Source: Paramagnetospirillum kuznetsovii (lineage in GTDB: Bacteria > Pseudomonadota > Alphaproteobacteria > Rhodospirillales > Magnetospirillaceae). From it: a stretch of DNA of 64,000 nucleotides. The notes under the pieces are model-generated. The model was not told where the DNA came from. It worked only from the letters and a program-made list of their open reading frames with translations, and searched no databases. The position numbers and the translations under genes were made by a program. The stretch is from assembly GCF_003284725.1 (NCBI RefSeq), contig NZ_PGTO01000001.1, forward strand, positions 62,001-126,000. Reading direction: 5' to 3'. Every line of letters starts with the position of its first letter. Within the stretch, counting starts at the first letter, position 1. Of this stretch, positions 2,182 to 63,237 are shown one piece after another.

Positions 2182-3141
2182 TCATGGGAGACCGGCGGCC
2201 CGCCAGACCTCGGAACCGGGGGCGGGAACCGCGTTTTCCGTCAACCCGTCGATGGCGGCGCGCCCCATGGCCAGCACCGCTTCCTCGGCGCTGCCACCGA
2301 TATGGGGGGTGGCCAGCAGGTTGGGCAGACGCAGGAATTCCAAGTCGGTGGGGGGCTCGTCGGCGAAAACGTCGAGACCGGCGCCCGCCAGTCTGCCATC
2401 CAGCAGCATGGATTTCAGCGCCGCCTCGTCCAGCAGACCGCCGCGGGCGCAGTTGATCAGCACGGCGTCGGGCCGCATCAGCGCCATGCGCTCGGCGGAG
2501 ATGATGTTGCGGGTCGAACCGTCCAGCGGCAGGTGCAAGGTCACCACGTCGGAGCGCCGCAGCAGATCCTCCAGCCCGACCCTCTCCACCCCATGGGCGG
2601 CGTAGAAATCGGGGAAGTCGCGGATATCATGGGCCAGCACGGCGCAGCCGAAGGCTTTGAGCAGCGGCGCCAGATCCTGGCCGATATGGCCGCAACCGAC
2701 GATGCCGACGGTGCGGTCGGACAGGTGGCGGCCCTGAAGCTGACGCCAGCCGCCCGCCCGCACTTCCAGATTGCCCTTGGGGACAAAGCGCAGCAGGGCG
2801 ATGGCCATGCTGATCACCAGTTCGGACACCGAGCGCCGGTTGACGCCGCCGGTCCAGCCCAGACGGATGCCGCGCCGGGCCATGGCGTCCAGGTCCAGCA
2901 TGTCGAGGCCGACGCCGTATTTGCCGATGACCCTGAGGCCGGGCAGCCGGGCCAGCAGCGCGTCGTCGATGCGCTCCAAGGCGGTGACGGCGGCGTCATG
3001 GCCCTTCAGGAAGGCGACCAGCGCGTCGCCCGCCAGACTGACTCCCGCGTCGTTGAAACTGGCGTCGGGGAACCGTTCCAGAAGTTCGGCCCGCAGCACC
3101 GGATGCTTGGAGAACGAGCGCGAGGCGATTGCGACCTTCAT
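2182..3141 (-). CDS. D-isomer-specific 2-hydroxyacid dehydrogenase
   Basis: This 319-residue protein has the normal length of the family. The NAD-binding Gly-x-Gly-x-x-Gly motif lies near residue 145-155 (Gly-Cys-Gly-His-Ile-Gly). The catalytic triad is visible as Arg in Asn-Cys-Ala-Arg-Gly-Gly, Glu in Phe-Ala-Asp-Glu-Pro-Pro and His in Thr-Pro-His-Ile-Gly-Gly. It should interconvert a 2-keto acid and a D-2-hydroxy acid with NAD(H). The start ATG overlaps the stop of the HAD phosphatase gene by 4 bp. Its position beside a KdsB-like cytidylyltransferase and a phosphatase suggests a role in making an acidic building block rather than serine synthesis, but the substrate is not evident. Confidence 0.88.
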   Translation of the reverse strand: MKVAIASRSFSKHPVLRAELLERFPDASFNDAGVSLAGDALVAFLKGHDAAVTALERIDDALLARLPGLRVIGKYGVGLDMLDLDAMARRGIRLGWTGGVNRRSVSELVISMAIALLRFVPKGNLEVRAGGWRQLQGRHLSDRTVGIVGCGHIGQDLAPLLKAFGCAVLAHDIRDFPDFYAAHGVERVGLEDLLRRSDVVTLHLPLDGSTRNIISAERMALMRPDAVLINCARGGLLDEAALKSMLLDGRLAGAGLDVFADEPPTDLEFLRLPNLLATPHIGGSAEEAVLAMGRAAIDGLTENAVPAPGSEVWRAAGLP

Positions 3142-3800
3142 GGCGACACCTTGTCCATGGCGGCCCCCAGATCGCCGAACCGCTCGATCAGGATATCGGC
3201 GCCCAGTTGCTCCACCGGCATGCGGGCATAGCCGTAGGTGACCGCGACGACCGGCAGACCGGCATCCTTGGCCGCCAGCACATCGGTGCGCGAATCGCCC
3301 ACATAGATCGCCTGCATGCCCTCGGCGCCCATCTGGCGCAGGGTTTCGCGCACATGCTCGCCGTCGGGCTTGCGCCGGACATAGTCGCCGCCCACCACCG
3401 CGGCGAACAAGGGCGCCAGACCCAGGGTTTCCAGCACCAGATTGGTCATGCCGTCGGGCTTGTTGGTGCAGATGCCGAGGCGATGACCGGCCGCCGCCAG
3501 CCGGGCCAGCTCGTCCCGCACCCCGTCATAGACATGGGTGTGATCGGCCGGGCAGGCGCGGTAGAAGGCGAGATAGCGCTCCACCAACGGCCTGACGGCG
3601 TCGGTCGCGGCCGAGGCTCCGGTGGCGGTCCAGGCGCGTTCGATCAGGGCGCTTGCCCCTTCGCCCACCAATTGCTGAACCTCGGGCAGCGACAGGGTGG
3701 GCCGCCCCTCCTCGGCCAACAGGCGGTTGAGCGCGTTGGCAACGTCGGGGGCGCTGTCGATCAGGGTTCCGTCCAGGTCGAACACGATGGCGCGGCTCAC
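3138..3800 (-). CDS. HAD-family phosphatase, phosphoglycolate phosphatase-like
   Basis: The 220-residue protein begins with the HAD motif I Asp-Leu-Asp-Gly-Thr (residues 8-12), followed by a helical cap, a Cys-Thr-Asn-Lys-Pro motif and the acidic motif Val-Gly-Asp-Ser-x-x-Asp. This is the Gph/PGP subfamily arrangement and length. It uses a GTG start whose bases overlap the stop of the upstream SGNH gene (GTGA), and it couples to the next gene by ATGA. In this operon it may dephosphorylate a sugar-phosphate intermediate for the nearby CMP-sugar synthetase-like enzyme. Plain phosphoglycolate salvage is the alternative. The sequence does not decide between them. Confidence 0.85.
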   Translation of the reverse strand: MSRAIVFDLDGTLIDSAPDVANALNRLLAEEGRPTLSLPEVQQLVGEGASALIERAWTATGASAATDAVRPLVERYLAFYRACPADHTHVYDGVRDELARLAAAGHRLGICTNKPDGMTNLVLETLGLAPLFAAVVGGDYVRRKPDGEHVRETLRQMGAEGMQAIYVGDSRTDVLAAKDAGLPVVAVTYGYARMPVEQLGADILIERFGDLGAAMDKVSP

Positions 3801-5188
3801 GGGCGCTTCTCCAGGTCTTCCAGCACCGCCTCGGCCACCAGGGCATGGCCGGTCTCGCTGTAGTGATTGGGACGGCGCCGGGCGAACAGCGCCGTCTTGT
3901 CGGCATGGGCGGCGAAGCGGGGGGTAAGGTCGATCATGGGAATGCCCAGGCGCTGAACCGTCGCGGCGACGCCGTCATGGATGGCCCGCTGCTCGGCCAG
4001 TTGCGCTCCCGCGCCCATGGCGGTGGTCCAGCCGGGAAGATAGACCAGGGTCAGTCGGCCGCCCCAGCCGGTGGTGCGTTCGTGGGCGATGCTCATGATG
4101 CGCTCGAACAGCGGCCAGTCGGGCTTGTCCGAGGCGGTGGGCAGGCGCAGGGCGATACGCAGGTGCGACAGGGTGAAAATGCCGATCACAGTCTGCATCG
4201 GTCCGGCATCCACCGAGGCTTCCCCCTTGGCCAGCATTCGTTCGAGATAGGCCCGCACCGAGGTGTCCAGCTCGGGATAAATGGCGTCCAGCCCCTGGCT
4301 GCCGCCGTCAAGGGCGCGCAGCAGAACCTCGGCGCGGCGCTCCACCGCCAGATTTTCAGGGATGTCGTTGCCCTCGCAGAAGAACCACAGCACCTCCCTG
4401 GGCTTGCGCTCGGGCAGGTATTCCACCAGTGCCGCCAGTTCGATCAGGGGGCCGTTGCCCGACATGGCCAGATTGAGGGTGGCGGGGTAGCGGGCGCGCA
4501 GGCGTCCGGCGAAGCTCTGGTCGGGCTCGACGCAATAGCCCTGGGCGAAGGAATCGCCCATCAGCGCCAGATCGAGACCGGGCTGCGACCATGTCCCCTT
4601 GGGATTGGCGAAGCCGCGCTCGTCGGCGGTATAGACCAGCCAATTGCCGTTCTCGTTGCACACCACCGTTTCCACATTGGCGGCGCCGCCCAGTGGCAGG
4701 ATCGGCTTGCCATCGACGACGATGGGGCTGGCCAGCGAGCCATCGGCGTTCGGGCGCAGGATATAGGCGGGGAACAGGGCGGGATAGGCGTCGCGGCCCT
4801 GGGCGCGCAGGGCAGTGATCACCTGCAGCTTGGTGCGGGAATCGCCCACGACATCGCTGATGGCGCGGCCGTCGTTTTGCACGGTGCCGGACTTCCAGGC
4901 CAGGAAACCCTCGGCCCCCCACAATCCCGCCGCCATCGCCACCAGGATGATTGCCAGTTGCAGCCGCGCGCCACGGGGCAAGGCCAGCGACAGGGTCAGG
5001 AACCCCGCCACCGCCAGCGGCATGGTGCGGATGACAAGGCCGAGGGTGCCGTCGGGCAGGTGATCCCGGGCGCGCAGCACCAGGGCGAATCCCAGCAAGG
5101 CGGCAATGGCGCCTGTCGCCAGCGTGATCCGCGCCAACCGGCTGGGCCAGTCGGGTCCGTGGCGGCGGCGGATCAGTATGTCCCCCAC
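3797..5188 (-). CDS. Membrane-anchored SGNH/GDSL hydrolase-like protein
   Basis: The 463-residue protein has three hydrophobic segments in the first 125 residues and then a soluble, probably periplasmic domain. The SGNH serine block appears as Met-Gly-Asp-Ser-Phe-Ala-Gln-Gly near residue 212. The Gly and Asn blocks appear as Ser-Gly-Asn-Gly-Pro-Leu and Cys-Glu-Gly-Asn-Asp, and a C-terminal His occurs in Asn-His-Tyr-Ser-Glu-Thr-Gly-His. Such proteins add or remove O-acyl groups on polysaccharides, often with an MBOAT partner, and an MBOAT gene lies about 0.8 kb upstream. The GTG start overlaps the KdsB-like gene by 16 bp, indicating coupled translation. A second SGNH protein is encoded at 7487-8518. 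Confidence 0.75.
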   Translation of the reverse strand: MGDILIRRRHGPDWPSRLARITLATGAIAALLGFALVLRARDHLPDGTLGLVIRTMPLAVAGFLTLSLALPRGARLQLAIILVAMAAGLWGAEGFLAWKSGTVQNDGRAISDVVGDSRTKLQVITALRAQGRDAYPALFPAYILRPNADGSLASPIVVDGKPILPLGGAANVETVVCNENGNWLVYTADERGFANPKGTWSQPGLDLALMGDSFAQGYCVEPDQSFAGRLRARYPATLNLAMSGNGPLIELAALVEYLPERKPREVLWFFCEGNDIPENLAVERRAEVLLRALDGGSQGLDAIYPELDTSVRAYLERMLAKGEASVDAGPMQTVIGIFTLSHLRIALRLPTASDKPDWPLFERIMSIAHERTTGWGGRLTLVYLPGWTTAMGAGAQLAEQRAIHDGVAATVQRLGIPMIDLTPRFAAHADKTALFARRRPNHYSETGHALVAEAVLEDLEKRP

Positions 5189-5940
5189 AGGGGATCGGCC
5201 TTGATGGCCGCTTCCACCAGATCGGCGTCCGAGGGGCTGTCCACCGAGAAATAGGTCACGGCGGGAAACGGCGCCAGGCGCTGGAACCAGCCATTGTCGG
5301 GGATACGGTTGGAATCACAGGATTCCTTCTTTTCCAGCGGTGATTCCGGCGTCTCGGTGAACCAGCGCAGCGCTTTCCAGCGGAAGGCGAAGATGCCGCC
5401 GACCCGGCGCGCGCCCAGCTCCGGCGAGAACTGCTTGGCATAGGGAACCGGCGCCCGCGAGGTGTAGAGCACGTTGCCCGCGAGATCATGGATGATCTTG
5501 ACGATATCGGGATTGCGCCACAGCGCCTCGTCGGTGATGTGGACGCCCAGCATGGTGCCCTTCACGGCCGGGTCGTCGTCGAACGGCTTGACCACCGCCT
5601 CGATCATCTCGGGCCGCAGCATGGGCTCGTCGCCTTGGACGCAGACCACGATATCATCGTCGGCGAGATCGACGCCGCACTTGCCCGCCGCCTCGGCGAC
5701 GCGGTCCAGGGCGCGGGTATGGCTGTCCTTGGTCCAGATCACCGGAAAGCCCTTGGACGCGCTGAAATCGCGGATCTCGGCGTCGCAGGTGCATACCGCC
5801 AGGGCATCCCAGCGGCCGAATTTGGCGGCGCGCAGGAAGCAGTGCTCCAGCATGGGACGGCCGCTCAATTTGAACAGCGGCTTGCCGGGGAAACGGCTGG
5901 CCGCCATGCGGGCGGGGACAAGGCCGACGATTTTGGTCAT
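5173..5940 (-). CDS. KdsB-like CMP-sugar synthetase (second copy)
   Basis: This 255-residue cytidylyltransferase-family protein starts with the nucleotide-binding Pro-Ala-Arg-x-x-x-x-Arg-x-Pro-Gly-Lys-Pro signature and has Gln-Gly-Asp-Glu-Pro in the middle. It therefore resembles 3-deoxy-D-manno-octulosonate cytidylyltransferase. It differs from the ordinary kdsB at 59372-60115: the Gly-Ser-Asp-Arg loop expected after the substrate His is replaced by Thr-Arg-Ala-Leu-Asp-Arg, and there is a Lys-Lys-Glu-Ser-Cys-Asp insertion near the C-terminus. With a complete kdsB elsewhere in the window, this copy probably activates another ulosonic acid or related acid. It heads a run of overlapping genes encoding an SGNH protein, a HAD phosphatase and a 2-hydroxyacid dehydrogenase. 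Confidence 0.78.
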   Translation of the reverse strand: MTKIVGLVPARMAASRFPGKPLFKLSGRPMLEHCFLRAAKFGRWDALAVCTCDAEIRDFSASKGFPVIWTKDSHTRALDRVAEAAGKCGVDLADDDIVVCVQGDEPMLRPEMIEAVVKPFDDDPAVKGTMLGVHITDEALWRNPDIVKIIHDLAGNVLYTSRAPVPYAKQFSPELGARRVGGIFAFRWKALRWFTETPESPLEKKESCDSNRIPDNGWFQRLAPFPAVTYFSVDSPSDADLVEAAIKADPLWGTY

Positions 5941-5982
5941 GTGGCGGGGCCTTTCGGGACGGTATGGCCGCTGATGTCTTGA

Positions 5983-5999
5983 AGCGGCCTTGGGCCGCT
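5983..5999. other. Perfect 7-bp hairpin between the MBOAT and KdsB-like genes
   Basis: AGCGGCC and GGCCGCT are separated by a TTG loop, giving a strong hairpin in the 71-bp gap that divides the MBOAT gene from the KdsB-like gene. No T-run follows on either strand, so it is not a classical intrinsic terminator. It may lower read-through or stabilise an mRNA end. Confidence 0.4.
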
Positions 6000-6011
6000 G
6001 TCAACACTCAT

Positions 6012-7490
6012 TCAGAAGATCATGTAGATGAAGGGCTGATTCCGGCCGCTGGTGGCCAGCAGAACCACCACCACGATCCCCAGGGCCGAGGCAAGCAGCG
6101 GCGGAGCGATCCAGCCGCGCCAGCGCCACAGCGGCTTGCCCCAGCCGGTGGGCGTCAGCGGCGGATGGGCGGGCTCGCTGGACAGGGGGCGGCGGAAGGT
6201 CAGCCATTCCTGGGTATTGGGCAACAGCCAGACGACGCCCAGCAGGACCGCCTCCCAGACATAGGCGGTGGAATCCAGCAAGGCGACATCGGCCTGCGGT
6301 GCCCATCCGTTGGCTCCGGCCATGCCGCCCAGAATCTCCCAGGCGCGGCCGAAACTGTCGGCACGGAAGAACACCCAGGCGACCACCACCGCCGCCAGGG
6401 TAAGAACCCGTCCGGCCCAGCGGCCGATCACGCCCGGTCGGCGTTCGCCGCGAAGGCCGCGCCACAGGTGGTTGACGACGAGATAGCCGCCGTGCAGTCC
6501 GCCCCAAGCCACGAAGGTCCAACCGGCGCCGTGCCACAATCCGCCCAGCAGCATGGTGACCATCAGGCTGACATGGCGGCGCAAGACCCCGTGGCGGTTG
6601 CCGCCCAGGGGGATGTACAGGCAATCGCGCAGGAAATGGGACAAGGTGATGTGCCAGCGTCGCCAGAAATCGATGATGCTGGTGGCCTTGTAGGGCGAGT
6701 TGAAATTGACCGGCAGCCGCAGGCCGAACATCAACCCCAGCCCCAGCGCCATGTCGGTATAGCCGGAAAAATCGAAATAGATCTGGAAGGCATAGGCCAG
6801 CGCCCCGCCCCAGGCGTCCACCAGGGTGGGCGCGGCCGAGGCGTTGAACACCGCGTCGGCGAAGGTGGCCATGCCGTCGGCCAGCATCACTTTCTTGTAC
6901 AGCCCCATGCTGAACATGGCGGCGCCCCTGCTGAGTCCGTCGCGGGTCAGATGGCCGAAACGACCGCTGCGCAATTGGGGCACGATCTCGCGGTGATGGA
7001 CGATGGGTCCGGCGATCAGCTGGGGGAAGAAGCTGGCGAAGAACAGATAGCTCAGCAACGAGCGGTCCGAGGTGCGGCGGTGAAACACGTCGATCAGATA
7101 GGCGATCTTCTGGAAGGTGATGAAGGATATGGCCAGGGGCAGGGCCAGCTTGTCGGAGCCGTAATGGGTGCCCAGCACGGCATTGACGGTTTCGGCCAGG
7201 AACCCGGCATATTTGAAATAGCCCAGCAGGATCAGGTTGAAAGCGATGCCCAGGACCAGCAGCGGCCGCGCGGCGCGGCGGTAGAGCACCTGGCCGATGC
7301 CGAAATTGACCGCCACCGAGGCGCCCAGAACCAGGAGGTCGGGCAGGTGCCAGCGGCCGTAAAAGCCGATGGAGGCCGCCACCAGCCACACCAGCAGCGC
7401 CTTTTGGCCGCCGACCCGGATGGCCAGCCACGACACCGCCAGGGTCAGGGGCAGGAAGCCGAACAGGAATTCCAGGCTGGAAAAGATCAT
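6012..7490 (-). CDS. MBOAT-family membrane O-acyltransferase (AlgI-like)
   Basis: The 492-residue multi-spanning protein matches the MBOAT family typified by AlgI and DltB. The region Leu-Phe-Phe-Ala-Ser-Phe-Phe-Pro-Gln-Leu-Ile-Ala-Gly-Pro-Ile and the later segment Trp-Arg-Arg-Trp-His-Ile-Thr-Leu-Ser are the conserved family motifs. The active-site His is in Leu-Trp-His-Gly-Ala-Gly-Trp. The ATG at 7490 is preferred because it overlaps the stop of the upstream SGNH gene (ATGA) and begins directly with a hydrophobic segment; an in-frame start at 7556 would add 22 residues lying inside that gene. It probably passes acetyl groups across the membrane to an SGNH partner that acetylates surface polysaccharide. 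Confidence 0.92.
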   Translation of the reverse strand: MIFSSLEFLFGFLPLTLAVSWLAIRVGGQKALLVWLVAASIGFYGRWHLPDLLVLGASVAVNFGIGQVLYRRAARPLLVLGIAFNLILLGYFKYAGFLAETVNAVLGTHYGSDKLALPLAISFITFQKIAYLIDVFHRRTSDRSLLSYLFFASFFPQLIAGPIVHHREIVPQLRSGRFGHLTRDGLSRGAAMFSMGLYKKVMLADGMATFADAVFNASAAPTLVDAWGGALAYAFQIYFDFSGYTDMALGLGLMFGLRLPVNFNSPYKATSIIDFWRRWHITLSHFLRDCLYIPLGGNRHGVLRRHVSLMVTMLLGGLWHGAGWTFVAWGGLHGGYLVVNHLWRGLRGERRPGVIGRWAGRVLTLAAVVVAWVFFRADSFGRAWEILGGMAGANGWAPQADVALLDSTAYVWEAVLLGVVWLLPNTQEWLTFRRPLSSEPAHPPLTPTGWGKPLWRWRGWIAPPLLASALGIVVVVLLATSGRNQPFIYMIF

Positions 7491-8518
7491 GGCGGGCAGC
7501 TCCGGATGCTGCAGGCCAGACGCTCGGCGGCCAAGGCGTGGCCACGCGGATTCCAATGGCCGTCATGGGCGAAATGAAAGGACAGCGGCGCGCCGCCCGC
7601 TTCGAAGTCGGGCCGCATGTCGATCACCCGCACGCCATGAGCCGCCAGGGCGGCGACGAAGGCGCGATGGACCCGGTCGGCGGTGGCGCGGTCCTCCGCC
7701 GATCCCGCCCACAGGGCGCGCGACGGTATGATCACCGCCCGCGACTGGGGGTAATCGCGCAGCACTTCGGCCAGCCTGTTCGCCGAACGCAAGGGCACCT
7801 CGGCATTCTCCTCGGCCTTGTGAACCCCGTCCAGATTGGCGCGCACCATGCCAGCCCGCACCGCCAGGTCGCGCAGCGCCTCGGTGTGATGCACCATGCT
7901 GGTGGCGAGGTAATAAAGTTCGGAATGGGCCATCAGCCAGTTCTTGAACAGCAGGAAATTCCAGTCGGATTCGGAAGAGGCCGCCTGTTGCCCCGGCGCC
8001 GCCGGGCCATAGAGCCCCAGATCGTTTTCCATGGTCACCATGACCGCCACATTGCGGACCGTGGCGCCCAGGCGGGCGGCGTGGCGCAGCAACTGGCCGT
8101 AATCGTCGAAATTTCCGGTCATGGCGATGTTGAAGACGCGGGGACCGCCCAGGCGCTTTTCCAACTGCTCGCTGGTGCGGTCGCGCGCCTCGACTCCCCA
8201 GCCGAAGGCGTAGGAATCCCCCACCACGATCCAGTCGTCGCCGGTCGCCTCGGCGATGTCGCGGCCATCGCGGAATCCGTGGCGGTTGATGCGGACCACC
8301 ACATTGTAGTCGCCGGTATTCTTGGCCTGACGGTGCAGGCCGGGCGCGGCGAGAATCGGGGTGTCGCCGACCTTGTCGGTGTAGTGCACCTGCCGCGATG
8401 GGTCGAATTCGGGAACCGCGAGCCGCACCACCAGCTCTTGCGCCGCGATGCCGAGCCCGAGGGCCAGGGCGGCGGCGCCGTACCCCAGGACGCGTCGGCG
8501 CCGCACCCGCTCAGACAC
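7487..8518 (-). CDS. SGNH/GDSL hydrolase-like protein, probable acetylation partner of the MBOAT protein
   Basis: The 343-residue protein has an N-terminal hydrophobic segment (residues about 9-27) compatible with a signal anchor. SGNH blocks follow: Val-Val-Gly-Asp-Ser-Tyr-Ala-Phe-Gly near residue 97, Met-Thr-Gly-Asn-Phe, Met-Glu-Asn-Asp, and a C-terminal Asp-Gly-His-Trp-Asn with the Asp-x-His pair. This is like the AlgX/AlgJ type, which transfers acetyl groups in the periplasm. The GTG start overlaps the preceding oxidoreductase gene by 8 bp and the stop overlaps the MBOAT start, so the two acyltransferase genes are translationally coupled. The polysaccharide it acts on is unknown. Confidence 0.82.
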   Translation of the reverse strand: MSERVRRRRVLGYGAAALALGLGIAAQELVVRLAVPEFDPSRQVHYTDKVGDTPILAAPGLHRQAKNTGDYNVVVRINRHGFRDGRDIAEATGDDWIVVGDSYAFGWGVEARDRTSEQLEKRLGGPRVFNIAMTGNFDDYGQLLRHAARLGATVRNVAVMVTMENDLGLYGPAAPGQQAASSESDWNFLLFKNWLMAHSELYYLATSMVHHTEALRDLAVRAGMVRANLDGVHKAEENAEVPLRSANRLAEVLRDYPQSRAVIIPSRALWAGSAEDRATADRVHRAFVAALAAHGVRVIDMRPDFEAGGAPLSFHFAHDGHWNPRGHALAAERLACSIRSCPP

Positions 8519-9560
8519 CGGGCCGGGCCGGGATCTGGTCGGTCAGGCCCCAGCGCGCCTTCCAGGCGGGATCGGCGCAATAGATGCGGTAGACCAGTTG
8601 CATGGTCTTCAGCGCCTCATCCGATGACCCGTTGACGATGGGCTGGTCGCGCAGCACCGAATCGGCGAATTCCGCCACTTCCTCGGACCAGCTGGGATCC
8701 TGGTTATAGCGGGTGGTCTGTTCCTTGGGATCGCCCGCGTCGTCGGGCGCCGCCCAGGACACCGTCAGGGTCTCGGCGCCATAGGATTTGGAGCCCGACA
8801 GGATGCCCGACAGGATGAGGGTGCCCTTGGTCAGGGTGATTTCCAGGTTGAAGCGGTGCCGCCACTGGGTCGCCGAGGAATGCAGCATGGCCACCACCCC
8901 GTCCTTGGACCGCATCAGGGCATAGGCGTTGTCCTCGACATCGTGGCCCCAGACATCGTTGGTGATGATGGCGTGGATATCCTCGAACTCGCCGCCGAAC
9001 AGCCGGATCAGGTCCACCATGTGGATGCCCTGGTCCAGCAGGATGCCGCCGCCCGCGATGGCCCGCTTGGTGCGCCAGTGATCGGGCGAGCGGAAATCGA
9101 TGATGGTGGACTTGCCGTAAACGCCGCGCATGTTGAGCACCCGGCCGAACTCGCCCGACTTCACCAGCGCCAGCGCCTCCTTGACCGAGTCGTGGTAGCG
9201 GTGGTTGAAGCCGTATTTCAGCTTCAGGCCGGGATGGCGCTTCTCGACTTCGATGACCCTGGCGATATCGGCCACGTCGCGTCCCGGCGGCTTCTCGCAG
9301 AAGACATGCAGGCCATGCTCGAGCCCCGCCATGGTGACCTCGGCGGCGATGTCGTTGGTCAGGCAGACGAACAGCACGTCCAGCGCCTCGCCCAGCAAGG
9401 CCTTGTAGTGGGTGAAGTGCCTGACCCCATCCACCACCGCCCCGTCCTGGGGTAGCCGCTGGTCGCACACGGCGACCACCGTCATATCGGCGCGGGCGTC
9501 GATCACCTGATGGCGGCGGCGGCCCACCACCCCGTAACCGGCGATGCCGACCCTAAGCAT
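8511..9560 (-). CDS. Gfo/Idh/MocA-family sugar oxidoreductase
   Basis: This 349-residue protein has the N-terminal Rossmann motif Gly-Ile-Ala-Gly-Tyr-Gly-Val-Val-Gly and the family motif Cys-Glu-Lys-Pro-Pro at about residue 91. It lies in a run of sugar genes and probably oxidises or reduces a nucleotide-linked sugar with NAD(P). The ATG at 9560 is chosen because the Rossmann strand starts right there and because it overlaps the end of the upstream paralogue by 8 bp. The same frame stays open further upstream, but that extension lies inside the upstream gene. The following SGNH gene overlaps its end by 8 bp. Confidence 0.86.
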   Translation of the reverse strand: MLRVGIAGYGVVGRRRHQVIDARADMTVVAVCDQRLPQDGAVVDGVRHFTHYKALLGEALDVLFVCLTNDIAAEVTMAGLEHGLHVFCEKPPGRDVADIARVIEVEKRHPGLKLKYGFNHRYHDSVKEALALVKSGEFGRVLNMRGVYGKSTIIDFRSPDHWRTKRAIAGGGILLDQGIHMVDLIRLFGGEFEDIHAIITNDVWGHDVEDNAYALMRSKDGVVAMLHSSATQWRHRFNLEITLTKGTLILSGILSGSKSYGAETLTVSWAAPDDAGDPKEQTTRYNQDPSWSEEVAEFADSVLRDQPIVNGSSDEALKTMQLVYRIYCADPAWKARWGLTDQIPARPGV

Positions 9561-10668
9561 GCTCGGGCGTCCGGTAGCGATCGGAAATGGCCTCGTTGGG
9601 CCGTCCCAGCCGCGCCGACTGCTCGGGCGAATCGACACTGACCCAGCCGCCCGACGCCTCGTCGGAGCGGTAGAAGGCGTGCAGCAGCCGGATGGTCGCC
9701 ATGCAGTCCTCCCGGTCCACCGGATAAGGCTTGGACTGGTGGAAGGCGGCCGCGATGTCGCGATACATCTGGGCATGGCCGAAGCCGTAGACGGCGCCGT
9801 GACCCTCGATGCCCTTGAAATCCTCGGAATGGGCGGCGCAGGCGGCGGGCTCGGGGGTGAAGACCTGCAACTCGTTGACGGCGATGCCGCCGATCTGAGC
9901 CAGACCCTTTTCGCCGACGATGGAGATGGAGGCCTCGAAATCATCGGGCCGCGCCGCCGTGGTCACTTCCAGAACGCCAACCGCCTTGGTGGCGTAGGAC
10001 AGGGTCGCGACCACGGTGTCCTCCACCTCGATCGCGGCCCCCAGGGTGCGCATGGTGGCGGACACCTTGTCCACCTCGCCGCCCAGATGGCGCAGCAGGT
10101 CCACATGGTGGATGCCCTGATTGGTCAGCGCGCCGCCGTCATGGCTGAAGGTGCCGCGCCAGGGCGCCAGATCGTAATAGCGCTGCGGCCGACACCAGCG
10201 CACGCGCACGCTCATGATGCGGATCTCGCCCAGCTCGCCGGTCTCCAGGGCCTGCTTGACGCGGCGCACCGCCTTGTTGTGACGGTTCTGGAACACCGGG
10301 AAGATGGAAAGATTCAGTCGGTCGGCGGTGGCCCAGGCCTTGGTCAGCTGCTCGGGGCGCATCATGGTGGGCTTTTCCAGGATGATGTGCTTGCCCCAGC
10401 GCTCCATCATCTCCATGCCGTGCTCGAAATGCATGCCCGACGGCGTGATCACCGCGACCACCGCCACATCGGGATGATCACTCAGCATCTTGCGGTAATC
10501 CGTATAGAAGGGGACGGCGAATTCGTCGCCATAAGCCTTGGCCTTGTCCTGGGCAAGATCGCAGACCGCCGCCAGTTCGACGCCGTCGGTGGCGACAATG
10601 GAGCGCGCATGGTGCCCGGCGATGCGGCCGCAGCCCACCAGGGCGACTTTGACGGTGTTGCTGGTCAA
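9553..10668 (-). CDS. Gfo/Idh/MocA-family sugar oxidoreductase (first gene of operon)
   Basis: The 371-residue protein has Gly-Cys-Gly-Arg-Ile-Ala-Gly-His near the N-terminus and Leu-Glu-Lys-Pro-Thr at about residue 99, the dinucleotide-binding and catalytic-lysine motifs of the family. It starts with TTG, supported by an AAGGGG Shine-Dalgarno-like element about eight bases upstream and by the lack of a usable ATG. The next gene is a distant paralogue, so the pair may act successively on one sugar or form a mixed enzyme. It is the first gene of the minus-strand run and shares a 143-bp divergent promoter region with the epimerase at 10812. Confidence 0.86.
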   Translation of the reverse strand: MTSNTVKVALVGCGRIAGHHARSIVATDGVELAAVCDLAQDKAKAYGDEFAVPFYTDYRKMLSDHPDVAVVAVITPSGMHFEHGMEMMERWGKHIILEKPTMMRPEQLTKAWATADRLNLSIFPVFQNRHNKAVRRVKQALETGELGEIRIMSVRVRWCRPQRYYDLAPWRGTFSHDGGALTNQGIHHVDLLRHLGGEVDKVSATMRTLGAAIEVEDTVVATLSYATKAVGVLEVTTAARPDDFEASISIVGEKGLAQIGGIAVNELQVFTPEPAACAAHSEDFKGIEGHGAVYGFGHAQMYRDIAAAFHQSKPYPVDREDCMATIRLLHAFYRSDEASGGWVSVDSPEQSARLGRPNEAISDRYRTPEHA

Positions 10669-59371: not shown

Positions 59372-60115
59372 TCAGCGGGGCGCGTTCAGCAGGGCGCGGG
59401 CCCTCTCGAGGTCGGCGGGAGTATCGACACCCAGCGGAACCGTGTCAACCAAAGCGCAATCGATGCGCATGCCGTTTTCCAGGGCGCGCAGCTGTTCCAG
59501 CTTTTCCCGCTGTTCCAAAACCCCTTGGGGCAGCGCCACGAACTTGGCCAGCGCCTTGCGGCGATAGGCATAAAGTCCGATGTGGTGGTAATGCGGCCCG
59601 GCATTGGCGGGCACGGTGGCGCGCGAGAAATACAGCGCCCGGCCGACCCGGGCGCCAGGGGCCACGGAGACCACCGCCTTGACCACGTTGGGATTGGTGC
59701 GTTCCTCGTCCAGGGTGATTTCGGTCACCAGGGTGGAGATATCGACCCCCTTGGCCTTCAGCGGCGCGAAGACGGCGCGGATCACCGCCGGATCGATGGT
59801 GGGCAGGTCGCCCTGGACATTGACGATGGCGTTGAAGCCCCTGTCGGGATCGATCTGTTCCAGCGCCTGCCATACCCGGTCCGAGCCGGTGGGCAGATCG
59901 GGATCGGTCATCACCGCGTTGCCGCCATGGGCGTGGACCGCGTCGAACACCGCGCGCTCGGCGCAGGCCACCACCACCGGCCCGATCCCGGCGGCGACGG
60001 CGCGCCGCCACACATGCACGATCATGGGTTCGCCATGAATATCGGCCAGCGGCTTGCCCGGCAGGCGGGTGGCGTGCATGCGGGCGGGAATGATGACGAC
60101 GGGATTGAGGGCCAT
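59372..60115 (-). CDS. kdsB: 3-deoxy-D-manno-octulosonate cytidylyltransferase
   Basis: The 247-residue enzyme has the standard Pro-Ala-Arg-x-x-x-x-Arg-Leu-Pro-Gly-Lys-Pro-Leu start, Gly-Ser-Asp-Arg-Val after the substrate-binding segment, and Asn-Val-Gln-Gly-Asp-Leu-Pro. It activates KDO as CMP-KDO for LPS core synthesis. Its normal motifs contrast with those of the KdsB-like protein at 5173-5940, so this one is the housekeeping copy. pheA follows after about 10 bp on the same strand. The 108 bp to the enoyl-CoA hydratase gene are a divergent promoter region. Confidence 0.94.
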   Translation of the reverse strand: MALNPVVIIPARMHATRLPGKPLADIHGEPMIVHVWRRAVAAGIGPVVVACAERAVFDAVHAHGGNAVMTDPDLPTGSDRVWQALEQIDPDRGFNAIVNVQGDLPTIDPAVIRAVFAPLKAKGVDISTLVTEITLDEERTNPNVVKAVVSVAPGARVGRALYFSRATVPANAGPHYHHIGLYAYRRKALAKFVALPQGVLEQREKLEQLRALENGMRIDCALVDTVPLGVDTPADLERARALLNAPR

Positions 60116-61121: not shown

Positions 61122-61198
61122 TGGTCGGAGTGAGAGGATTCGAACCTCCGGCCCCTGCCTCCCGAAGACAGTGCTCTACCAGGCTGAGCTACACTCCG
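61122..61198 (-). tRNA. tRNA-Pro(CGG)
   Basis: On the minus strand the sequence folds into a full cloverleaf: acceptor stem CGGAGTG with CACTCCG, D-arm GCTC/GAGC, anticodon stem CTGTC with GGCAG around a TTCGGGA loop, T-arm containing TTCGAAT, and an encoded 3' CCA. The anticodon is CGG, reading the proline codon CCG. Confidence 0.95.
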
Positions 61199-61297
61199 GT
61201 CGCCTGCGAGGCGCTTCTTATAGCGCCAACATCCTGGGTTCGCAAAGGGATTCTCGCGCGTTTGCGCCATCTGGGCGCCACCATTGTTCACCCAAGC

Positions 61298-61329
61298 AAA
61301 AACCCCCGCCGGTTTCCCGACGGGGGTTT
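61298..61329 (-). terminator. Intrinsic terminator of glnA
   Basis: AAACCCCCG and CGGGGGTTT form a 9-bp stem; on the minus strand it ends in a T-run. It lies 25 bases past the glnA stop and should end the glnB-glnA transcript. Confidence 0.75.
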
Positions 61330-61353
61330 CGCGGACGGAACCGATGACTCGGA

Positions 61354-62766
61354 TCAGACCGAATAGTACATCTGGAATTCGACCGGATGCGGGGTGTGCT
61401 CGAAGCGGTAGACTTCCTCGTATTTGAGCTCGATATAGCTCTCGATGAATTCCTTCGAGAACACGTCGCCCTTGCACAGGAAGTCGTGGCTGGCCCGCAG
61501 GGCCTCCAGGGCTTCGCGCAAGGAACCGCAGACGGTGGGAACCTGGGACAGCTCTTCCGGGGGAAGGTCGTACAGGTTCTTGTCCATGGGATCGCCGGGG
61601 TGGATCTTGTTGGCGATACCGTCCAGGCCGGCCATCAGCATGGCCGAGAAGGCCAGGTAGGGGTTCGCGCCCGGATCGGGGAAGCGGACCTCGACGCGCT
61701 TGCCCTTCGGCGAGGCCGAGTAGGGGATGCGGCAGGAGGCCGAGCGGTTGCGGGCCGAGTAGGCCAGCAGGACCGGGGCTTCGAAGCCGGGGATCAGGCG
61801 CTTGTAGCTGTTGGTCAGCGGGTTGGTGAAGGCGTTGATGGACTTGGCGTGCTTGATGATGCCGCCGATATAGTACAGCGCGGTCTCCGACAGGTCGGCA
61901 TAGCCGGACCCGGCGAACAGCGGCTTGCCCGCCTTCCAGATGGACTGGTGCACATGCATGCCCGAGCCGTTGTCGCCATAGATGGGCTTCGGCATGAAGG
62001 TGGCCGACTTGCCGTAGGAGGCGGCCACGTTGTGGACCACGTATTTGTAGATCTGGATCCAGTCGGCGGCCTGGACCAGGCTGCCGAACTTGATGCCCAG
62101 TTCGTGCTGCGACGAGGCCACTTCGTGGTGATGCTTCTCGATGGGCAGGCCCATCTCGCCCATGACGGTCAGCATCTCGGCGCGCATGTCGACGTGGCCG
62201 TCAACCGGCGGAACCGGGAAATAGCCGCCCTTGACGCCCGGACGGTGGCCCAGATTGCCCTCGGCGAAGTCGCGGCCCTGGGCCTCGACGCCGTCTTCCG
62301 AGCACAGCTCGTAATAGCCCTTGTTCATGCCGAGTTCGTACTTGACGTCGTCGAACACGAAGAATTCGGCCTCGGGGCCGAAATAGGTGGAATCGCCCAC
62401 GCCCGACGACTTCACGAAAGCCTCGGCGCGCTTGGCGATGGAACGGGGGTCGCGGTCATAGAGCTGGCCGGTGGCGGGCTCGACGATGTCGCAGTTGATG
62501 ATCAGCTGCGGCTGCGCGGCGAAGGGGTCCATGACGGCGGAAGCCGGGTCGGGCTTCAAGATCATGTCGGACTCGTTGATGCTCTTCCAGCCAGCGATGG
62601 ACGAGCCATCGAACATGATGCCTTCGTTCAGCATCTCGGCGTCGACGGTGGAGACGTGCTGGGCGGTGTGCTGCCACTTGCCGCGCGGATCGGTGAAACG
62701 GAAATCGACGTATTTCACGTCGTTTTCCTTGATCAGTTCGAGGACCTTCTTGACGTCGTCGGACAT
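61354..62766 (-). CDS. glnA: Glutamine synthetase type I
   Basis: The 470-residue enzyme is of GSI length. It has Met-Phe-Asp-Gly-Ser-Ser-Ile near residue 50, [11 protein letters not shown] near residue 218, and the adenylylation Tyr in Asn-Leu-Tyr-Asp-Leu-Pro-Pro-Glu-Glu near residue 396. It makes glutamine from glutamate, ammonia and ATP, and is regulated by reversible adenylylation. AGGA precedes the ATG by about eight bases. It follows glnB by 61 bp on the same strand, so both are probably transcribed from the sigma54-type promoter upstream of glnB. Confidence 0.96.
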
Positions 62767-62827
62767 GGTCAGATTCCTGATAGCTGAGAGTTGGTACGGA
62801 TAGAATTAAGGTGAGGTGGCGCGGAGC

Positions 62828-63237
<410 letters not shown>

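Follow-up and report, generated by a model that had tools for sequence, protein, structure and literature searches.

A KdsB-like cytidylyltransferase of Paramagnetospirillum kuznetsovii lies in a conserved gene module probably distinct from Kdo activation and may activate another sugar acid

Which sugar acid is activated by the second KdsB-like cytidylyltransferase of Paramagnetospirillum kuznetsovii? The stretch analysed here, referred to as the window, comprises 64,000 nucleotides of contig NZ_PGTO01000001.1 (positions 62001-126000, window position 1 being contig position 62001). It carries a canonical kdsB gene at 59372-60115 on the minus strand and, approximately 53 kb away at 5173-5940 on the same strand, a gene for a divergent relative, here called KdsBl. 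The latter is part of a minus-strand operon of ten genes that runs from 10668 to 847 in the order GfoA, GfoB, SGNH1, MBOAT, KdsBl, SGNH2, HAD, a 2-hydroxyacid dehydrogenase resembling phosphoglycerate dehydrogenase (PGDH-like), GT2 and FdtA-like. Most neighbouring genes overlap by 4-16 bases; MBOAT and KdsBl are 71 bases apart, and the PGDH-like and GT2 genes 13 bases. The original prediction had described positions 3138-10668 as a possible acidic-sugar module with an MBOAT gene, two SGNH genes, a KdsB-like gene, a HAD phosphatase and a 2-hydroxyacid dehydrogenase, mostly overlapping and far from a normal kdsB. All these genes, and the distance, were found as described; that range does include the named genes except for the 2-hydroxyacid dehydrogenase, which lies just outside it, and it includes two Gfo/Idh/MocA genes that had gone unmentioned. 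As set out below, the operon may make a cytidine monophosphate (CMP)-activated, ulosonic-type 2-keto sugar acid other than 3-deoxy-D-manno-octulosonic acid (Kdo) by an oxidation route, for use in a surface polysaccharide. We hold this tentatively, with a confidence just short of even; we are more certain that KdsBl is part of a conserved module separate from Kdo activation than we are of the chemistry.

KdsBl has the CTP_transf_3 fold (PF02348, 119.9 bits, cut-off 22.6) and falls below the curated KdsB cut-offs (TIGR00466, 120.1 versus 155.2; PRK05450.1-1, 129.1 versus 281; and also PRK13368), while the Pedobacter protein passes PRK05450.1-5. A scan of species genomes yielded 91 KdsBl loci, of which the best 80 were kept, giving 81 loci with the window included. 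In a phylogenetic tree, whose long branches leave the outgroup order unsure, the 81 KdsBl proteins formed one clade (support 100/100) that excludes both the canonical KdsB of the window and that of E. coli. According to their titles, the kept loci come from Paramagnetospirillum, Magnetospirillum, other Rhodospirillales, Sulfuritalea, Rhodocyclaceae, SAR11, SAR86, SAR116, Nitrospinae, Pedobacter and others; many are metagenome bins, for which odd single taxon labels are untrustworthy. A KdsBl copy at ~64% identity or more was present in 24 of 60 related genomes, in which canonical KdsB matches were ~35% identical. When 289 genomes were drawn evenly from the class, KdsBl gave, at E 1e-60 or better, a match in the genome of P. 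kuznetsovii itself and in no other, so the gene is patchy outside the order. A phage or plasmid origin was considered and not retained: a viral scan gave 29 pattern matches, none of them a relative, and PHROGs had none for KdsBl, and the 72 matching plasmid records were all below 60% identity, the 15 listed being ~32-35% identical.

The predicted KdsBl model (predicted local distance difference test score, pLDDT, 89.8) was closest to the solved structure 1gqc, KpsU with CMP-Kdo (Z score 30.8, 1.9 Å over 242 residues, 32% identity), and Foldseek gave template modelling (TM) scores of 0.87/0.91 for this pair. Comparison with a CMP-Kdo complex had been proposed in the original prediction as a check; it agreed as to the fold, and the match itself counts in favour of a second CMP-Kdo synthetase, an alternative weighed below. 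The aspartates of the Mg-A site (D104 and D234) and the cytidine triphosphate (CTP) residues R11, R16, K20 and R80 are kept in 81/81 KdsBl proteins. For canonical comparison we used 19 KdsB proteins; from the 20 sequences retrieved for this purpose, we left out L166 and L183 because of their long branches, and L181 and L182 because they belong to another KdsB-like clade. These have a G[ST][DE]R loop in 19/19 cases, whereas the window protein has HTRALDR and thus indeed lacks the normal Gly-Ser-Asp-Arg; within the clade the loop reads xRALDR in 78/81 and KRCLDR in 3/81, with the loop arginine present in all 81. The original prediction had taken this loop as a sign of an altered substrate, for which it is weak evidence. 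In a study on Aquifex aeolicus KdsB, L70, P71 and R76 of the loop stretch are described as contacting the cytosine and ribose, and the C-terminal domain (residues 100-210) as binding Kdo (PMC3149649). Since the loop sits in the nucleotide-binding half of the protein, it says little about the sugar, and we rejected it as the main evidence for a new one. The changes in the C-terminal domain appear to be better evidence for a non-Kdo substrate. At the positions of E. coli Y185, L209, E210, Q211 and L212, canonical KdsB has Y, L, E, Q and L in 19/19, and KdsBl has F or L (F in 78/81), C (81/81), D (80/81), S (80/81) and N (81/81), respectively. Of these E. coli residues, Y185, E210, Q211 and L212 are presumably in contact with Kdo.

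Profile searches were then used to establish which genes accompany KdsBl in the 81 loci, excluding matches below set bit thresholds or more than 10.5 kb from KdsBl. Three neighbours occur beyond chance: GfoA (65/81), GfoB (63/81) and the PGDH-like dehydrogenase (56/81). These three form the core of the module together with an enzyme that releases phosphate. A HisC-like aminotransferase was found in 36/81 loci, a TIGR04326-like GT-B protein in 29/81 and a GmhA-like SIS isomerase in 22/81, the last of which hints at a seven-carbon intermediate. MBOAT is present in only 14/81 loci and SGNH1 in 11/81, the pair changing 7 times on the tree (70 proteins counted); these, a carbamoyltransferase (15/81) and methyltransferase genes, which also occur, are optional decoration. 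The acyltransferases were therefore rejected as the core of the module. What stands of the predicted acidic-sugar module is a separate activation module, as judged from the clade, the partners and the changes in the sugar domain, and not one built around an acyltransferase pair.

The phosphate-releasing enzyme is of three kinds, which exclude one another. It is a HAD phosphatase in 36 loci, including the window (3138-3800, minus strand), an AroB-like protein (TIGR04425-like) in 28 and an inositol-phosphatase-like protein (PF00459) in 6. Thus, exactly one is present in 70/81 loci, none in 11 and two together in 0. The 11 loci lacking one all have less than 4 kb of sequence on one side of KdsBl, for 10 of them the downstream side; L156 has 10.4 kb downstream. 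The slot enzyme changes 6 times on the tree, and two Sulfuritalea sisters differ (AroB-like in L137, inositol-phosphatase-like in L143). Because all three families release phosphate, their exclusive presence suggests that they act on a shared phosphorylated intermediate. The company differs between types: 26/28 AroB-like genes have an SDR gene immediately before them, and the aminotransferase is found in 24/28 AroB-like, 5/6 inositol-phosphatase-like and 2/36 HAD loci. KdsBl itself has Tyr at residue 181 in 28/28 AroB-like loci, and in phosphatase loci Gly in 38/42, Tyr in 3 and His in 1, the three with Tyr (L099, L143 and L146) being near relatives of AroB-like ones. This residue switches together with the slot in L125 compared to L114 and L132, and stays the same despite a slot change in L137/L143, L136/L146 and L097 or L120/L099. 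The pattern weakly supports slightly different products of the AroB-like and phosphatase types.

The AroB-like proteins could be compared with dehydroquinate synthase using the 23 full-length sequences from the 28 loci. All 23 keep Lys and Arg at the positions of that enzyme's carboxylate pair, the two residues that hold the carboxylate there, and this fits a 2-keto-acid phosphate; where the GLAEVIK motif of E. coli AroB has Lys, 6/23 have His. In a PDB search, dehydroquinate synthase (143.5 bits) scored above the 2-deoxy-scyllo-inosose synthase DOIS (2d2x, 110.5) and the cyclase 4p53 (107.9). The genome of P. kuznetsovii has a single AroB-like place, which scores 232.9 bits and stays under the TIGR04425 cut-off of 400; 8 of the 60 relatives pass this cut-off; a TIGR04425 search on the 289-genome draw (E 1e-110) gave no match, and the controls were silent too.

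Based on this gene content and its conservation, the exclusive slot, the separate clade, the kept catalytic residues and the altered sugar domain, we infer the following route, in which the individual reactions and their sequence are conjectural, as are the sugar's size and the target of acylation. One or both Gfo/Idh/MocA enzymes would oxidise a sugar phosphate, and the PGDH-like enzyme (2182-3141, minus strand) would convert a 2-hydroxy acid into a 2-keto acid, so that no synthase condensing phosphoenolpyruvate (PEP) would be needed. The HAD enzyme would take off the phosphate, KdsBl would link the C2 hydroxyl to CMP, a GT-B protein would transfer the activated acid, and MBOAT/SGNH would acylate the product. 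O-acylation of the product is plausible. MBOAT and SGNH domains lie side by side in the operon. In the phosphatase variant found in the window, an open or pyranose 2-keto acid would be used. For the AroB-like variant, one could imagine that the 2-keto-acid phosphate is closed to a carbocyclic, quinate-like acid, one carbon of which would still bear both hydroxyl and carboxylate, and that KdsBl joins CMP to this tertiary hydroxyl, giving a CMP-carba-ulosonate. We regard this reading as rather improbable, and we know of no such nucleotide-linked building block.

KdsBl might instead be a second CMP-Kdo synthetase, similar to the capsule-specific KpsU, that supplies Kdo for a surface polymer while the neighbouring genes make other sugars. 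The nearest structure, that of KpsU with CMP-Kdo, and the kept catalytic residues agree with this. The separate clade, with scores below the TIGR00466 and PRK13368 cut-offs, the alteration of the E210, Q211 and L212 positions in at least 80/81 proteins and the conserved partners that KdsBl has of its own argue against it, and we consider it improbable. Somewhat less so, though still unlikely, is that Kdo made by KdsA is first modified, for example to 8-amino-Kdo, then activated by KdsBl and acetylated by MBOAT/SGNH. The genome has one KdsA, Gfo/Idh/MocA enzymes could oxidise a sugar hydroxyl, MBOAT and SGNH lie within the operon, and an aminotransferase accompanies 36/81 loci. However, this last gene is found in just two of the HAD-type loci and is not among the ten operon proteins. 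The system for 8-amino-Kdo is KdnA/KdnB, in which KdnB is of the iron-dependent alcohol dehydrogenase type; no such dehydrogenase turned up in the ten proteins of the operon, to which the scan was confined, and there is no Shewanella title among the best 80 of the 91 related loci.

It is also possible, though doubtful, that KdsBl activates a 3-deoxy-ulosonic acid formed by condensation with PEP or pyruvate, by a NeuB-type or other synthase encoded nearby or elsewhere, which the PGDH-like and Gfo enzymes then tailor. To our knowledge, all characterised KdsB and NeuA relatives use acids formed by such a condensation. A NeuB-family gene (PF03102, query 306.9 bits) was found in 10/81 loci, namely in 8/28 of the AroB-like type, 1/36 of the HAD type and 1 lacking a slot enzyme, and just 2 of these 10 stretches also carry a NeuA-like gene. 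In L135 the NeuB match (107-1938) ends 38 bases before KdsBl, making it the sole direct neighbour among the 10. These loci raised our estimate for the condensation alternative from improbable to the present level. Conversely, 71/81 stretches, including the first 22 kb of the window, showed no NeuB match, many of them ending at contig ends, and the conserved gene clusters of the KdsBl loci did not point to a synthase of any other family. The genome of P. kuznetsovii has one KdsA, one class II 3-deoxy-D-arabino-heptulosonate 7-phosphate (DAHP) synthase and two NeuB for five CTP_transf_3 places, and each NeuB place lies 2-7 kb from another CTP_transf_3 place on the same contig.

The NeuB loci weigh against the oxidation route as well, as do several other points. 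In some genomes a PEP synthase may feed KdsBl, not visibly so in the window, and the acid could be supplied from Kdo made by KdsA or by an aldolase elsewhere. Another CTP_transf_3 place of the genome (on contig C20) likewise lacks an adjacent synthase in the searches made. The PGDH-like gene was not seen in 25/81 loci. The HAD protein of the window passes the NCBI cut-off for phosphoglycolate phosphatase (TIGR01449, 205.8 versus 180 bits). On starred branches, no more than 4 independent tree pairs bear on the slot swap (p 0.125), which limits the statistics, and the 80 kept loci and the 60 related genomes are partly the same genomes. If the AroB-like enzyme closes a carbocycle, the product would have no anomeric carbon. 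On account of the NeuB count we lowered our confidence in the oxidation route from even to just below it; it is better supported for the HAD type of the window than for every member of the family.

Known systems resemble the module in part. KdsB and KpsU (TIGR00466, PF02348) share with KdsBl the fold, the CTP site, the Mg-A aspartates and the loop arginine, and KdsBl differs from them in its own clade, changed sugar-binding domain, RALDR loop, own partners and scores below the curated cut-offs. TIGR04425 is an NCBIfam hypothetical equivalog described as an AroB-related putative sugar phosphate phospholyase (cyclizing). Proteins like it, found in 28 KdsBl loci and never with the phosphatases, largely keep the catalytic residues of dehydroquinate synthase; the family is absent from the window operon, which has the HAD phosphatase instead. 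Our literature search found no paper carrying the name of this family. Pairs for O-acylation of the AlgI/AlgX or DltB/DltD type likewise place MBOAT beside SGNH, but in KdsBl loci they are accessory. In the NtdC/NtdA/NtdB pathway for kanosamine, a Gfo/Idh/MocA dehydrogenase, an aminotransferase and a HAD phosphatase act on a sugar phosphate, with neither CMP activation nor a 2-hydroxyacid dehydrogenase; the window operon has Gfo/Idh/MocA and HAD enzymes in common with it and lacks the aminotransferase. Among the literature matches listed, no title or opening of an abstract described the KdsBl module.

KdsBl-like genes are liable to be named Kdo cytidylyltransferases, which would hide a separate sugar pathway common to magnetotactic bacteria, SAR11, SAR86 and Bacteroidota. 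If correct, a route to a CMP-sugar acid that runs through oxidation and dispenses with PEP condensation would be new. That a locus has either a phosphatase or a cyclising phospholyase, and never both, would offer a direct genetic handle on the intermediate, and the loci provide a biochemical context for TIGR04425.

The remaining operon genes, all on the minus strand, were assigned by profile searches. GfoA (9553-10668) is a Gfo/Idh/MocA dehydrogenase by Pfam and NCBIfam, with 3q2i (206.7 bits) and 3q2k (200.9 bits) as best PDB matches and the next best at 79; its nearest solved relatives are thus presumably WlbA. WlbA catalyses C3 oxidation of a uridine diphosphate (UDP)-uronic acid. GfoB (8511-9560) is the second such dehydrogenase. 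The accessory genes encode SGNH1 (7487-8518), which is SGNH/AlgX-like (PF13472, 39.3 bits; PF16822, 33.7 bits), the MBOAT O-acyltransferase (6012-7490; PF03062, 108 bits) and SGNH2 (3797-5188; PF13472, 33.2 bits, cut-off 32.9). The PGDH-like protein is a D-2-hydroxyacid dehydrogenase (PF02826, 186.7 bits) that remains under the TIGR01327 cut-off (211.4 versus 454 bits). It is followed by a GT2 glycosyltransferase of the PgfS/ArnC type (1242-2168) and, as the last gene, an FdtA/WxcM-like protein (847-1245; PF05523, 123.7 bits). Convergent with the operon end, on the plus strand, lies the 3' part of a gene for a weakly TIGR04326-like GT-B fold protein (1-858), the reading frame of which is open across the window start (contig 61170-62858); in many relatives this gene precedes GfoA. 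For a TIGR04326-like relative, the best fold match was UDP-GlcNAc 2-epimerase (Z score 13.5), and the polysialyltransferase 5wcn had a Z score of 10.9, which does not settle the donor of this predicted transferase.

Other KdsB-like proteins were seen during this analysis. A second clade (L060, L061, L064-L067 and L069; ~40% identity) reads HERASDR or HERAGDR at the loop in the two sequences shown. Of its 7 loci, 5 have a PGDH-like gene within ~1.2 kb, which speaks for the oxidation route, and 3 have a NeuB-cluster gene in the same stretch; the clade probably serves another CMP-sugar acid. A third clade (L070, L181 and L182; support 100/100) is ~30% identical and comes from genomes of the same genus, with an FDMCNDR loop in L070 and L181. 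Two bins titled Ilumatobacteraceae and Acidobacteria (L142 and L156) carry KdsBl and no module gene in the stretch, and are either mis-binned contigs or orphan genes. L063 (9918-14488) retains GfoB, SDR, AroB-like and PGDH-like genes with a distant KdsB-like protein (36%) in place of KdsBl. Finally, nine loci, L162 (2778-3587) among them, have a gene for a TIM-barrel isomerase/epimerase (IolO/psicose-epimerase-like, 43 bits) on the upstream side of the GT-B gene.

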